IMG/VR virus record: IMGVR_UViG_3300017917_000490
Location: 1-34,815 of that record
Reading direction: 5' to 3' (one strand)
Source: a virus
Length of the DNA stretch: 34,815 nucleotides
Under the pieces are notes generated by a model. The model saw nothing but the letters and a program-made list of their open reading frames with translations. It ran no database searches and had not been told where the DNA came from. Positions 1,444 to 21,449 of the stretch are shown in pieces. Made by a program: the position numbers and the translations under genes. Within the stretch, counting starts at the first letter, position 1. Every line of letters begins with the position of its first letter.

Positions 1444-3345
1444 ATGCCTAGATTATCGCTTTACCGCCCAGAAAAAACCAAAGATTATAGATTCCTTGAC
1501 AGAACAATTAAGGAAATGTTTGTTGTGGGTGGAACGGATTTATATGTTCACAAATATTTAGGCATTCCAAATCAAGGACCTAGTCAAGATTTTACACAAC
1601 CGCAATATGATACATTAAATCCAAAGAACATACAAGATTTATTATTCCTAGAAAATAGAGATAGAGTATATGATAAAGATATCTATAGATTGCGTGGGCA
1701 TTATAACGTACAAAATTTAGATTTCGATTTAAGTCAGTTTGGATTATTCTTAAATAATGATATTATTTTCATAACAGTTCATTATAATGAAATGATTGAA
1801 TTGTTGGGTAGAAAATTAATGGTGGGAGACGTATTAGAATTACCTCATTTAACTGATTATCATCCATTAAATGAAACTATCCCGATAGGATTGCGTAGAT
1901 ATTATCAAATTACTGATGGTAATTTCGCTAGTGAAGGATTTAGTCAAACATGGTATCCTCATTTATGGCGTATTAAATGTGAGCCATTAGTTGATAGCCA
2001 AGAATTCAGTAATATATTAAGTCAGCCAATTGAGAAGGATAATTATTTAGGTGATTGGGATCCTAATAAAACATATGTACCGGGGTATACCGTTACATAT
2101 GGTGATAAAACATATACTCCTAAACAAAACGTGCCGGCCGGAATCGCTCCAACAGATCCATTGTATTGGCAATTAGATACTGCTGATAATTTACGTGACA
2201 TTATAGGTCGTTACAATGAAAATATTGCTATCAACGATGCGGCTATAGCTGAGGCTGAACGCATTGTTCCTAAGACAGGTTACGATAGAAGTCAATTGTA
2301 TCTTGTTCCTACATTTGATGGTGAGCCTGCTCCTCCGGTAAACGTAATTGTACCAAACGGCGCCCCTATTCCAGGAAACGTTCAATTTGTTTTTAGTGCT
2401 CAATATAAAAATCCTAGTCCAGTTATTAGAATAGGTGCTGAAGCTAGAAAGCGACTATGGCAATTAACTGAACAAGAAACTGATGCTTTAAAAAAGCACG
2501 TAGGTTTGTTACTACAAACAGCTAAGTTACCACCAGAAAGAACTGACACTGGTAGTGGACAAGTAGATGGAACGTTAGTGTTAACTGCTAAAGCAATGGG
2601 CGAGATTACAGGCCCATACGGTACTGCTGACAATACATATTCTACTGCTGATAACTTCCCACCAATTTACATGACCAGTTTAGAGGTACCAATTGGAAGT
2701 ACAGTGATTAGCGCACAAGTAGTACCAAAAGAAATTGTACATGAAGTAGACATTGTTGCTAGAACATTAAGCCCCAACGGAACAGAAGTTGATATATTTG
2801 CTCCCGGAACATTTGTAGTTGGAGTTGATTATTTAAACAACACATTTACCGTTAATATTCCTACGATAGCTTTCATGCCCGCCGGTACTGAGATACAAGC
2901 GGCAGTTGCTAGTTTTGAACAACAAGGATTTGTTGTCTCTCAACAAATGGACTTTAGAGCGGACTGCGATCCTAGATTCCAATTCATAGCCAGAGTTACA
3001 CCTGAAGGATTTGGTTATACAAATGGATACATGATTGGTGATGGTACTGCTCCTAACGGACTTCCAGTAGGTTCGGGTACTACTTTCCCAGCTAACCCTT
3101 CAGTAGGAGATTATTTCTTACGTGTTGACTATCTGCCTAATCTCTTATATCGTTGGGACGGAGGTTTATGGATAAGAATTGGTATAAGTTCTAGAGGTGG
3201 GGTAGCTTTCGATACTACTGTACCAGGACAACAATCACAATTAGCAAGTTTTATCAACAACGAACAAACATTAACACTAACGGATGGCACTGTAGTCCCA
3301 CAACAGCAGCCACTAAGCTCATTGTTCAAACTAACACCAGATTAA
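1444..3345 (+). CDS. gp14: gp14-like neck (head closure) protein with extra domains
   Basis: This is a neck protein that joins the filled head to the tail. Residues 1-200 read like T4 gp14: an N-terminal segment with a conserved YVHKYLGIP element, then LFLNNDIIFI and a VGDVLELPH stretch comparable to VGDLIYFP in gp14, and a YYQITDG segment. T4 gp14 is about 256 residues (family memory); this protein has 633. Residues 201-245 (GDWDPNKTYVPGYTVTYGD, a later W) match the pattern of a CBM5/12-type carbohydrate-binding module. Residues 548-582 contain a VGDYFLR...LYRWDG.LW module seen in phage structural proteins. gp15 follows four bases after the stop. The identity of the N-terminal third is fairly secure; sugar binding is inferred from pattern only. 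Confidence 0.8.
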   Translation: MPRLSLYRPEKTKDYRFLDRTIKEMFVVGGTDLYVHKYLGIPNQGPSQDFTQPQYDTLNPKNIQDLLFLENRDRVYDKDIYRLRGHYNVQNLDFDLSQFGLFLNNDIIFITVHYNEMIELLGRKLMVGDVLELPHLTDYHPLNETIPIGLRRYYQITDGNFASEGFSQTWYPHLWRIKCEPLVDSQEFSNILSQPIEKDNYLGDWDPNKTYVPGYTVTYGDKTYTPKQNVPAGIAPTDPLYWQLDTADNLRDIIGRYNENIAINDAAIAEAERIVPKTGYDRSQLYLVPTFDGEPAPPVNVIVPNGAPIPGNVQFVFSAQYKNPSPVIRIGAEARKRLWQLTEQETDALKKHVGLLLQTAKLPPERTDTGSGQVDGTLVLTAKAMGEITGPYGTADNTYSTADNFPPIYMTSLEVPIGSTVISAQVVPKEIVHEVDIVARTLSPNGTEVDIFAPGTFVVGVDYLNNTFTVNIPTIAFMPAGTEIQAAVASFEQQGFVVSQQMDFRADCDPRFQFIARVTPEGFGYTNGYMIGDGTAPNGLPVGSGTTFPANPSVGDYFLRVDYLPNLLYRWDGGLWIRIGISSRGGVAFDTTVPGQQSQLASFINNEQTLTLTDGTVVPQQQPLSSLFKLTPD

Positions 3346-18442: not shown

Positions 18443-18667
18443 TTATCCTTGTGGAAATTTAAGTAAAAAGAAAGTAGCATAGCGTTCATCTTGAAAAGTC
18501 AATGTCCAACGTTTATTCACCATGTTAGGTTCCCATTCATGTTTAGCAATCCAGCCTTCGCCACCTATACTATTGTGTATGTAGTGTAATCTGGGCCCTA
18601 TATTCTTTGCCAGCCATTGTTCGTATTCTGGATTCAGACCATGTTTAAGATTTATACTTATTGTCAT
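18443..18667 (-). CDS. Small LRW-family-like protein (ends LLKFPQG)
   Basis: A 74-residue protein with the family core YEQWLAKNIGP and a later TLTFQDERYATFFLLKF, which aligns with the F-x-F-x2-E-x-x-A-x2-F-x-LRW ending of the array but has LLKF in place of LRW. ATG 18667 lies 23 bases inside the upstream gene and has no clear ribosome site. The final codons CCA CAA GGA provide the Shine-Dalgarno (AAGGA) of the next gene. Function unknown. Confidence 0.65.
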   Translation of the reverse strand: MTISINLKHGLNPEYEQWLAKNIGPRLHYIHNSIGGEGWIAKHEWEPNMVNKRWTLTFQDERYATFFLLKFPQG

Positions 18668-18869
18668 ATACTAACAAATCAAATGCTGTAGCGTATTGTA
18701 CTTCAGGTTCCATATGAAAGCCTTTGCCCCACACTACCCATACTTTACGTTTATACGCTTTCTGCCAAAAGATTCTTTTTCCTGTTATAGTAGTGGCCCA
18801 TGGCCACCAGACAAACACTTCTCGCCAAGGATAACAATCTGCTCCATTTTCAATGATAGTATATTCCAC
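18645..18869 (-). CDS. Small Trp-rich protein inserted in the array
   Basis: A 74-residue protein unlike the flanking family: EVFVWWPWATTITGKRIFW, then YKRKVWVVWGKGFHMEPE and QYATAFDLLVYD. I recall similar Trp-rich small proteins in T4-like phages but no function. It starts at GTG 18869, one base before the upstream TAA, nine bases after the GAGG of the upstream LRW codons. The downstream gene begins inside it. Confidence 0.6.
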   Translation of the reverse strand: MEYTIIENGADCYPWREVFVWWPWATTITGKRIFWQKAYKRKVWVVWGKGFHMEPEVQYATAFDLLVYDNKYKS

Positions 18870-19067
18870 TTATAACCACCTCAACATAAAGAAGGTATAG
18901 TCTTGTTCACGCTTGAATGCAAAGTACCAAATATCGTTACGCCACTCTTGAGTTTTGAGATTTTTATAACACCAACGCTCTAAATCTTGTATGGTACACT
19001 CTTTATCAATGACTTGTGTATCTAATCTAACTTGATAAGGCCAATATTTTTTATTGAAATACCTCAT
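18870..19067 (-). CDS. LRW-family small protein
   Basis: A 65-residue protein (MRYFNKKYWPYQ...) with core LERWCYKNLK and ending YFAFKREQDYTFFMLRWL. I choose ATG 19067, which overlaps the upstream stop as ATGA and sits right after GAGGTGG; an earlier in-frame ATG at 19088 would place that ribosome site inside the gene. Its own LRW codons (TTGAGGTGG) form the ribosome site for 18869. Function unknown. Confidence 0.7.
   Translation of the reverse strand: MRYFNKKYWPYQVRLDTQVIDKECTIQDLERWCYKNLKTQEWRNDIWYFAFKREQDYTFFMLRWL
18876..18882 (-). promoter_or_regulatory. Shine-Dalgarno embedded in LRW codons (for 18869)
   Basis: GAGGTGG within TTG AGG TGG (Leu-Arg-Trp) at the end of the 18870-19067 gene. 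GTG 18869 is nine bases after GAGG. Confidence 0.75.
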
Positions 19068-19336
19068 AGCCACCTCAAAATGAACCACTCAGCATCTTTT
19101 TTCTTACGGAATACAAAGTAACTATTCAAACGCATCCACTGTTTTTCTTTTACATTAGCCTCAATCCAATTTAAAACATCAACAGAATGTTCACGCCCTG
19201 TATAATAATATTCTACTTCAGTCCATCCACCATCAACTAAGCAGGCTCGCATAACGTCATTGTCAATGCTTCTTGTCATTTCATCAAGTTTTTCTTTAAC
19301 TATGTTATCTATCAACGATATATCAGACTGAACCAT
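19064..19336 (-). CDS. LRW-family small protein
   Basis: A 90-residue protein (if started at ATG 19336) with core VLNWIEANVKEKQW and ending YFVFRKKKDAEWFILRWL. It follows the one array gene whose ending is LIYR instead of LRW, so no ribosome site is encoded there; accordingly the best start is ATG 19336, 25 bases inside the upstream gene, with only a weak GAAGAA before it. A TTG overlapping the upstream stop is possible but has no ribosome site. Function unknown. Confidence 0.65.
   Translation of the reverse strand: MVQSDISLIDNIVKEKLDEMTRSIDNDVMRACLVDGGWTEVEYYYTGREHSVDVLNWIEANVKEKQWMRLNSYFVFRKKKDAEWFILRWL
19070..19076 (-). promoter_or_regulatory. Shine-Dalgarno embedded in LRW codons (for 19067)
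   Basis: GAGGTGG within TTG AGG TGG (Leu-Arg-Trp); ATG 19067 begins five bases after GAGG and overlaps the TGA stop. Confidence 0.85.
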
Positions 19337-19530
19337 GTCGCTAATTCTTCTTTATAAAACGTAAAAACTACACTTCTATTATACACTGCATCGCCGGAAA
19401 AACTATCAAATTTGGGTGGATGGTATGTAAAGTCAAAGTCTATACCTTGAACGTAGCCTTTTAATCGTACATCCCTAACGATGTCCATAATCTCATTTAC
19501 TGAGATATCCAATAGTTTTACTTCTATCAA
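19312..19530 (-). CDS. LRW-family-like small protein ending LIYR
   Basis: About 72 residues, with ending VVFTFYKEELATWFSLIYR, which keeps the F-x-F-x2-E...F-x-L frame of the family but lacks Arg-Trp. The start is probably TTG 19530, overlapping the upstream TGA as TTGA five bases after GAGG; GTG 19533 is the alternative. Function unknown. Confidence 0.6.
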   Translation of the reverse strand: MIEVKLLDISVNEIMDIVRDVRLKGYVQGIDFDFTYHPPKFDSFSGDAVYNRSVVFTFYKEELATWFSLIYR

Positions 19531-19739
19531 CACCACCTCAACTTAAATAAAATTACATGTTTTTCTTCTTTAAAGAACCATGTGCTTCTAGTATCCCCAT
19601 TTATCCACATTAATGGATCAATGCCTAACTTATACCAATCTTTATCAAAATCTCCGATATAACAACTACACCAATCTTGAACTATACTCCAATCAGGTTC
19701 AATGATAGTGATATGGTATTTCCATTCAGGACCTAACAC
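19527..19739 (-). CDS. LRW-family small protein
   Basis: A 70-residue protein (GTG TTA GGT CCT...) with core IVQDWCSCYIGDFDKDW and ending WFFKEEKHVILFKLRWC. GTG 19739 overlaps the upstream TAG stop by one base and follows GAGGTGG. The TTG AGG TGG codons at its end serve the next gene. Function unknown. Confidence 0.65.
   Translation of the reverse strand: MLGPEWKYHITIIEPDWSIVQDWCSCYIGDFDKDWYKLGIDPLMWINGDTRSTWFFKEEKHVILFKLRWC
19533..19539 (-). promoter_or_regulatory. Shine-Dalgarno embedded in LRW codons (for 19530)
   Basis: GAGGTGG within TTG AGG TGG; a TTG start is five bases after GAGG, overlapping the TGA stop. Confidence 0.7.
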
Positions 19740-20002
19740 TATAACCACCTCAACGCAAACAACATCGCTTTCTTTTCATCCTCTATAAAAATAGTAGGAA
19801 CATGCCTTGTGCCCGAATCTTTTGATGGGTCATTACTAGGTATTTCATACGTCATACGTTTATAGAACCAAATATCATTTTCATTTCGTTCTTCACGGAT
19901 ATTGGAATAGCTTCCTAAATGCATAACGTTTCCTGGACCTATATTGTCCCATAACCATTTAACACATTCTCTGGGTACGCCTTGATTGAATTCGAACTTC
20001 AT
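19739..20002 (-). CDS. LRW-family small protein
   Basis: An 87-residue protein (MKFEFNQGVPREC) with core CVKWLWDNIGPGNVM and ending PTIFIEDEKKAMLFALRWL. ATG 20002 overlaps the upstream TGA as ATGA, just after AAGGTGG; a GTG six bases earlier lies inside that ribosome site and is rejected. This is one of the clearest members of the family. Function unknown. Confidence 0.7.
   Translation of the reverse strand: MKFEFNQGVPRECVKWLWDNIGPGNVMHLGSYSNIREERNENDIWFYKRMTYEIPSNDPSKDSGTRHVPTIFIEDEKKAMLFALRWL
19745..19751 (-). promoter_or_regulatory. Shine-Dalgarno embedded in LRW codons (for 19739)
   Basis: GAGGTGG within TTG AGG TGG; GTG 19739 starts eight bases after GAGG. Confidence 0.8.
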
Positions 20003-20238
20003 GACCACCTTAAGACAAAATAAATAGCATCTTTTTCGTCATAGAAATTAAACTCCATGTATTCTTCATACGGATGCCATTCGTATTTGCTTCCCGGTAA
20101 TCCATACGTATCTATAGCCCAGGCACATATTTCATTCCATTCTGAAACAGAGCCTCGTCCGTCACGCCAGTTGATTTTAACTTTAGTAACCGGCTTCTCT
20201 AAGTGTGTCTTTGATTTTGTTTCGTAAGTCTGGTTCAC
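19999..20238 (-). CDS. LRW-family small protein, first of the array; start uncertain
   Basis: Up to 79 residues. Core EICAWAIDTYGLPGS and ending NFYDEKDAIYFVLRWS place it first in the array. The only usual start codon in frame is GTG 20238, which overlaps the zinc-finger gene by 56 bases and has no ribosome site; family members would be expected to begin nearer VKINWRDG, where only Val GTT, Ile ATC and similar codons are available. The true start may be non-standard. Its last codons TTA AGG TGG supply the next ribosome site. Confidence 0.6.
   Translation of the reverse strand: MNQTYETKSKTHLEKPVTKVKINWRDGRGSVSEWNEICAWAIDTYGLPGSKYEWHPYEEYMEFNFYDEKDAIYFVLRWS
20005..20011 (-). promoter_or_regulatory. 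Shine-Dalgarno embedded in LRW codons (for 20002)
   Basis: AAGGTGG within TTA AGG TGG (Leu-Arg-Trp); ATG 20002 is five bases after AAGG and overlaps the TGA stop. Confidence 0.85.
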
Positions 20239-20881
20239 GATGAAATTTCAATGCCCATTGTTCTGGATCGATGTAATCAATTACTATTTTAACATGATCC
20301 GGATTTAAGTTATCTAAGAACTGGGTGCCGCTATCACTACAATACAACATCCATGGGCTTATTTTACCAGTTGTTATACCATAACATATTCTATTCGGGT
20401 TCCCATACCTCAAAACATCATGTATTTGTATCCTATCTTGCTCCGCTAATTCCATACAGTACTCTACACTTCTGGCAATGGCATCAAATGGATCTTCGTT
20501 TCTCAAATACTCAATTAAAAATTTTGTGTAGTTAGAATCTTGTGCCCAGTTATCTAGTTTTATATTGTCTTTCAACAACCAATTAACGTATCGATTTACG
20601 TTTACTACGTTTGTACCAATACAGTAATTACCAAATTTTACAAAGGCAATATAGTAAGGACTCTTTATGAATTCTTCGTATGTCTTTTCTTTTTTAGCCG
20701 CAGAATGCTTTTTATAAAACTGTACATAGGTTTGAAACCCTATCTGATTTCCGCGTCTATCTTTTTCTAGCCAACGATGTTTTGTTTCACAAATATGTGT
20801 AAGTAGTGTTTTTTCTCTTACAAATTTGCGATTACAAAATTCACAACTATATGTTGAATTAGTTGCCTCGTCCTTTTTCAT
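20183..20881 (-). CDS. C2H2 zinc-finger phage protein, function unknown
   Basis: A 232-residue protein whose first 36 residues hold a C2H2-type zinc finger: Cys13-x2-Cys16-x12-His29-x5-His35, with KF and LLTH as in classical fingers. The remainder (TYEEFIKSPYYIAFVKFGNYC, LRYGNPNRICYGITTGKIS, GTQFLDNLNPDHVKIV, DPEQWALKF) is highly patterned and, by memory, conserved across T4-like cyanophages as an uncharacterised protein. I prefer ATG 20881 to a TTG nine bases earlier. It overlaps gp62 by 23 bases, so it is coupled to the replication genes. A nucleic-acid-binding role is inferred from the finger. Confidence 0.8.
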   Translation of the reverse strand: MKKDEATNSTYSCEFCNRKFVREKTLLTHICETKHRWLEKDRRGNQIGFQTYVQFYKKHSAAKKEKTYEEFIKSPYYIAFVKFGNYCIGTNVVNVNRYVNWLLKDNIKLDNWAQDSNYTKFLIEYLRNEDPFDAIARSVEYCMELAEQDRIQIHDVLRYGNPNRICYGITTGKISPWMLYCSDSGTQFLDNLNPDHVKIVIDYIDPEQWALKFHREPDLRNKIKDTLREAGY

Positions 20882-21449
20882 ATTTTTCAATATCTTCTTC
20901 TGTGACTAACTGTGCCAATAAATCAATGTCGCTATGCTTAAGCTCCGGGTATTCTTTTGCTAGATATACTTTTTTACGCTGTTCTGTTACATAAGCATCA
21001 GTGATTGCTTCTAAGTCATCGCTACTTGCTTTAGGATAAACTTTAGAAAAGTATTCATTAATTTCTTTATGTGTTGCCTTTTCTTTAAGAGACCTTACTG
21101 ATTTGCTTATTTGCGGTATCCATTGATGACGTTTAGATCCTAGCCCAGGACTGCTAGCACACAACATCATCCATTGTAACTTAGGATGCTTAATTACATT
21201 TTCATTGAACAAGTGTTGATTAGCATAATAATCTACGCTACGCACATAATAACCCTGAACGCCACCGTTATCTTTAATCTGACTCATCCACTGTGTCATC
21301 ATAAAAGGCACAAACTTCTTTTGTTGTTCTTCTGTTAGTTTGTCAAAATAGAAATAATCTTTTTTATCTAGTGCCGCTAGAGCCGGAAACAACTCAAAGT
21401 CTTGTTGTTCAAACTTTTCATCTGTAGGTGTTGATTTCTTAGTTGCCAT
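20859..21449 (-). CDS. gp62: gp62-like clamp loader small subunit
   Basis: A 196-residue protein that reads like the gp62 subunit of the T4-type clamp loader, which with gp44 loads the gp45 sliding clamp. Features recalled from T4-like phage gp62 proteins are FELFPALAALDKKDY, FVPFMMTQWMSQIK, LFNENVIKHPKLQWMMLCASSPGLGSKRHQWIP (key element MLCASSPGLG) and DAYVTEQRKKVYLA. T4 gp62 is 187 residues, close in length. ATG 21449 overlaps the upstream stop as TAATG. gp44 and gp45 are not in this window. The assignment is by pattern, not by a catalytic motif. Confidence 0.75.
   Translation of the reverse strand: MATKKSTPTDEKFEQQDFELFPALAALDKKDYFYFDKLTEEQQKKFVPFMMTQWMSQIKDNGGVQGYYVRSVDYYANQHLFNENVIKHPKLQWMMLCASSPGLGSKRHQWIPQISKSVRSLKEKATHKEINEYFSKVYPKASSDDLEAITDAYVTEQRKKVYLAKEYPELKHSDIDLLAQLVTEEDIEKYEKGRGN

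Follow-up and report, generated by a model that had tools for sequence, protein, structure and literature searches.

In a rapidly diverging family of tiny proteins from large aquatic phages, the C-terminal helix ends in a conserved Leu-Arg-Trp (LRW), and the codons for these last conserved residues very probably double as the initiation region of the overlapping next gene. Two modes are proposed, with the synonymous choice set by the successor. In the SD mode, (T/C)TG-AGG-TGG would provide a strong Shine-Dalgarno sequence (SD) 5–9 bases before the next start, usually at an ATGA or TAATG overlap. In the start mode, NNA-TGG would itself carry the next start codon ATG (rarely GTG, in NNG-TGG), with a 10-base overlap and no SD. 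The Leu and Arg synonymous choices would switch with the gene that follows.

The window, a 34,815-nucleotide (34.8 kb) IMG/VR virus fragment, comes from a large T4-like phage and shows synteny, in the helicase, the primase, and the genes around them, with jumbo phages 121Q, PA5oct, SCTP-2, Atu_ph07, and Phosso. A PHROG 11058 protein conserved in jumbo phages (20183–20890) directly precedes the tiny-gene run and has a weak C2H2 zinc-finger match near its N-terminus. The run was not found at this location in the five cultured relatives compared, although three of them have family members elsewhere (31 matches in Phosso, 4 in Atu_ph07, and 3 in PA5oct). No tRNA genes were found across the window.

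All genes of the run lie on the minus strand. Each of the five LRW endings in the window is spelled TT(A/G)-AGG-TGG, with the next start 5–9 bases further on. The first family gene (19999..20238, ending YFVLRWS) probably begins further upstream than first read, at GTG 20238 within the preceding gene; homologues share this N-terminus. At its junction, CTTAAGGTGGTC then ATG 20002, AAGGTGG (20005..20011) covers the Leu-Arg-Trp codons as the putative SD for gene 2, with an ATGA overlap. Gene 2 (19739..20002, ending LFALRWL) closes with TTGAGGTGGTTATA then GTG 19739, and GAGGTGG at 19745..19751 (dG -8.5) would serve gene 3. Gene 3 (19527..19739, ending LFKLRWC) closes with TTGAGGTGGTG then TTG 19530, the candidate SD for gene 4 being GAGGTGG at 19533..19539 (dG -7.3). 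Gene 4 (19312..19530) has the variant ending WFSLIYR, and its successor has no SD (dG +0.6), as the sequence-only reading had stated. For that successor, gene 5 (19064..19315, ending WFILRWL), the probable start is TTG 19315, which matches the beginning of the aligned orthologues. Its own junction is TTGAGGTGGCT then ATG 19067, with GAGGTGG at 19070..19076 (dG -6.9) as the putative SD for gene 6 and an ATGA overlap. Gene 6 (18870..19067, ending FFMLRWL) closes with TTGAGGTGGTTATAA then GTG 18869, preceded by GAGGTGG at 18876..18882 (dG -8.5). The gene started there, MEYTIIENGADCYPW (18645..18869), lies outside the family, and its orthologues come after many different predecessors. A weak family member ending FFLLKFPQG (18443..18667) follows; its orthologues elsewhere begin MAITINLK and use the start mode.

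The sequence-only reading had described these five junctions and the use of AGG at each, and all are present. Of the 428 Arg codons in the larger genes of the window, 7.2% are AGG, so that AGG at five of five would arise by chance with a probability of about 2e-6. The string (G/A)AGGTGG occurs seven times on the minus strand of the window, five of them at LRW junctions. At four of these five, AGGTGG contains a GTG that shares the reading frame of the successor, so start assignments there are not unique.

Relatives were gathered through the upstream neighbour (45 loci) and two orthologue groups, and family members were collected with a C-terminal profile (consensus F.F.DEKDA.WF.L). This yielded 548 non-redundant members, 392 with an LRW ending; downstream sequence was sufficient for 536 members at 124 viral loci. 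Members stand in runs of up to 13, and paralogues are about 20–35% identical. The AlphaFold model of gene 6 (pLDDT 86.9) has the order beta-alpha-beta-beta-alpha, and its last helix ends with LRW. The tiny proteins form one family with this predicted fold. Pfam and PHROG scans and PDB profile and fold searches with the tiny proteins gave no usable match, and tblastn of gene 1 against INPHARED found nothing. Matches in a viral fold library were uncharacterised phage proteins only, two of them from Atu_ph07.

Across 384 C-terminal LRW motifs, Arg is encoded by AGG (215), AGA (115), CGA (36), CGG (9), CGC (5), and CGT (4). AGG thus reaches 56% versus a genome baseline of 8%, the other baseline frequencies being CGT 35%, AGA 33%, CGA 12%, CGC 10%, and CGG 2%. 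Internal LRW motifs use AGG in 0 of 20 cases. The Leu codon beside AGG ends in G in 87–88% of cases versus a baseline of 30%, an association that holds in held-out loci collapsed at 80% identity (p 2e-13); beside AGA, CGA, or CGG, Leu is mostly TTA or CTA. Codons for the conserved upstream F, E, K, and D are near baseline, which confines the bias to the two positions, Leu and Arg, just before Trp. Among variant endings, WRW has TGG-AGA, giving GGAG, in six of seven, and LTW, LVW, and LIW mostly keep NNA-TGG, as LKW often does.

Selection for an SD was assessed by comparing anti-SD duplex energies with those of synonymously redrawn last codons, with hosts and anti-SD assumed. At ATGA/TAATG junctions, the energy for LRW-AGG is -7.18 kcal/mol versus -2.56 for the synonymous null, and LRW-NGA gives -2.38 kcal/mol with no excess. 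The SD within the upstream coding sequence therefore exceeds synonymous expectation at LRW-AGG junctions, 89% of which are individually significant, versus 15% of non-family junctions. These comparisons support selection on the LRW synonymous codons for an SD. The pattern could instead be a genome-wide habit in which all tightly packed genes have an SD within their neighbour's end. Such placement is known in prokaryotes (PMC2784483, PMC6728339), and non-family junctions here exceed their null too (-2.86 vs -1.48 kcal/mol). The LRW-AGG effect is nevertheless three times larger, strong SDs are present at 97% of its junctions versus 23% of non-family junctions, and a habit of this kind does not predict the start mode, which makes it an unlikely account of the whole.

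The two modes separate by Arg codon. At AGG endings, a start lies within SD range in 200 of 215; the ATG is at Arg+8 in 116 and at Arg+11 in 53, giving overlaps of 4 or 1 bases. At NGA endings (n=151), an ATG lies at Arg+2, in the same frame as an ATGA start. Here (A/C)GA-TGG holds the start codon of the next gene without an SD, and CGG-TGG analogously holds an inner GTG. The inner ATG is the sole start within reach in 59 of 151; no start was found in 9, and 83 have the inner ATG and another ATG further on, either of which could be used as far as the sequence tells. At NGA junctions with TAA stops, the next gene begins at the inner ATG, and proteins beginning there start with MA or MG. The overlap is fixed at 10 bases, ATGGNNNTAA, and an SD sought ahead of the inner ATG was not found (-1.80 vs null -1.94). 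Given the fixed overlap, the lack of an SD, and what is known of overlapping gene pairs (PMC6728339), initiation at the inner ATG most likely relies on ribosomes that have just finished the upstream gene. Across the junctions, the computed sequence statistics show the codon association, the excess of SD energy over its synonymous null, replication in held-out loci, and tracking of the successor; ribosome use of both signals, coupling, and the choice between two in-frame starts are what we infer from these patterns.

In held-out loci collapsed at 80% identity, which corrects for the kinship of the sequences only in part, the ratio of junctions with a start in SD range to those without is 81:3 for AGG and 32:30 for NGA, about half of NGA having the inner ATG only (p 7e-11). 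The contrast persists when held-out loci related to the discovery set are removed (p 3e-8). CGT and CGC are absent (0 of 85) from LRW junctions without a start in SD range, though they form 45% of Arg codons. Since possession of the inner start is what places a junction in the inner-ATG-only class, the informative observations are the AGG/NGA contrast and this absence of CGT/CGC within the class. CGN codons before adjacent genes, which the sequence-only reading had regarded as evidence against dual use, do occur; CGA and CGG, however, form ATG or GTG within CG(A/G)TGG, and CGC and CGT account for 9 of 384 endings. Its proposal of joint selection on a protein motif and a translation signal is supported: AGG and G-ending Leu accompany a start in SD range, the association replicates in held-out loci, and copying is not the explanation.

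An SD at a fixed distance from ATGA would always read as xRW, so LRW might be a by-product of frame, a ribosome site and no protein motif. ATGA geometry does set AGGTGG in frame, and family members of Sinorhizobium phage Phosso keep FKL while the following Arg position is free (T, A, E, R). Arg and Trp are, however, retained as CGA, CGC, CGG, or AGA where no SD results, and F.L and the preceding helix are conserved upstream of any SD. RW falls within the last four residues at 42 of 524 other junctions, and the cases listed are mostly family-like proteins outside the collected set. This makes a pure by-product of frame improbable. The preferred reading remains a protein motif with a second use, and the variable position in Phosso is a hint that Arg in the window's relatives is kept partly for the signal. 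A stronger form, in which the initiation needs of the next gene largely keep the conserved Arg, so that the ribosome signal shapes conservation of the whole family and its members are exchangeable links in a chain, is suggested tentatively and is doubtful on present sequence comparisons.

Gene order varies enough to ask which gene sets the codon. Across phages, one and the same gene can have as many as about 20 different successors, and about a third of successors lie outside the family. Pairs with the same successor and different predecessors share the mode in 70–73% of cases (chance 51–54%), and pairs with the same predecessor and different successors do so in 53–61% (chance 51–54%). Behind ten different predecessors the MAITINLK gene uses the start mode, and behind seven another successor gene uses the SD mode. 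With equal weight given to each cluster, a predecessor effect also passes a permutation test; it is weaker than the successor effect and not absent. Position by position, agreement with the predecessor holds for codons as far as -1 and again for the residue after Trp. The Leu and Arg codons show no such agreement, and at the Arg third base the tendency is toward the successor (0.65 vs 0.53). By these comparisons, the Arg codon goes with the following gene more than with the gene in which it lies. Block transfer, with a recombination boundary before the motif and the signal moving with the successor, was considered as a source of this pattern. The residue after Trp still follows the predecessor, so a single synonymous base that has adapted to whichever gene follows, with no copied block, fits better.

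Identity by descent is a further alternative, in which recent tandem copies share junction DNA and TTGAGGTGG is a copied string that was not selected. Such copying would suit a single paralogous family whose many members stand in runs as long as 13. The low identity of the paralogues (about 20–35%) and the near-baseline codons of other conserved residues (F, E, D) stand against it. The Leu and Arg codons of orthologous predecessors also match no better than random pairs, while neighbouring codons do agree. Identity by descent is thereby largely refuted and has only the slightest probability. The sequence-only reading had further proposed a self-propagating cassette, each gene bringing the SD for whatever inserts behind it. 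Orthologous genes with up to about 20 different successors and the frequency of strong SDs would suit a cassette, but the mode switches when the successor differs and does not belong to the predecessor, and about a third of successors are non-family genes. Tracking of the successor supports dual use and does not support a copy that brings the ribosome site for its successor; with the synonymous base adapted to the next gene, the cassette idea is reversed, and we consider it very unlikely.

Several known systems resemble these junctions in part. An SD that lies inside the upstream gene and affects its codon use is known (Palleja 2009, PMC2784483), and the same intragenic constraint is attributed there to Eyre-Walker 1996. 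As in LRW junctions, that SD overlaps upstream coding sequence and constrains synonymous codons; here, in contrast, it lies in a conserved motif shared by one large family, where an embedded start codon can take its place. Termination-reinitiation coupling occurs at ATGA/TGATG overlaps, where an SD in the upstream gene is frequent and helpful but not essential (Huber 2019, PMC6728339), and SD removal lowers reinitiation, often without abolishing it (PMC6728339). The LRW junctions have the same overlaps and by analogy may be coupled; they differ in that a further class of junction lacks an SD and overlaps by 10 bases. In fusellovirus SSV4 and archaea, GGTGA makes the stop codon part of an SD (PMC2784483). 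SSV4 likewise has a compact viral genome in which a gene end is reused as SD, whereas LRW junctions use sense codons before the stop. An SD of the SSV4 type was rejected for the LRW junctions, AGGTGG ending before the last sense codon.

In open-licence papers, no conserved amino-acid motif was found whose codons supply either an SD or a start codon depending on the gene that follows, and this aspect, two interchangeable initiation signals in one conserved motif, looks new. Hundreds of junctions with one motif amount to a large natural experiment in which the neighbouring gene sets a single synonymous base. The same three codons with two alternative signals provide a clean case of SD-led versus SD-less initiation at overlapping genes. 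They also warn that, at the ends of proteins, the gene downstream can account for codon bias and even for conserved residues.

Other variants were observed. In some loci the first family gene ends LTCG or LTRG, with Cys or Arg in place of Trp (L099, L108, L116, L117, L148, L165, L008, and L025); TGT-GG or CGT-GG there contains a GTG that opens a conserved downstream frame (MADVILYI.., MDKCL..), a putative third embedded start variant. An exception to the SD mode is an orthologue group of 12 loci in which AGG persists with the next start as far away as +46 (L003, L004, L012, L015, L057, L058, L066-L068, L070, L071, and L088, after the first family gene). This group keeps AGG-TGG-TTA-TAA-TA(G/A)TGT, including a TATAAT string, and a conserved promoter-like or other signal may hold its codons. 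At L130 (about 3100–3145), an isolated intergenic AAGTTGAGGTGGTTGTGAG, which would read KLRWL*, lies after a family gene ending LKWI* and before the next gene; it may be what is left of a family gene that was deleted, retained as an SD. In Phosso, a tRNA-Arg(CCT), the reader of AGG, adjoins a family gene; the phage also has a gene with the annotation translation initiation factor IF-1 (L218:1322-1396 and L219:4148-4366). PA5oct carries a phage gene annotated as 30S ribosomal protein S21 (L221:6456-6662) close to family members in the same genome.
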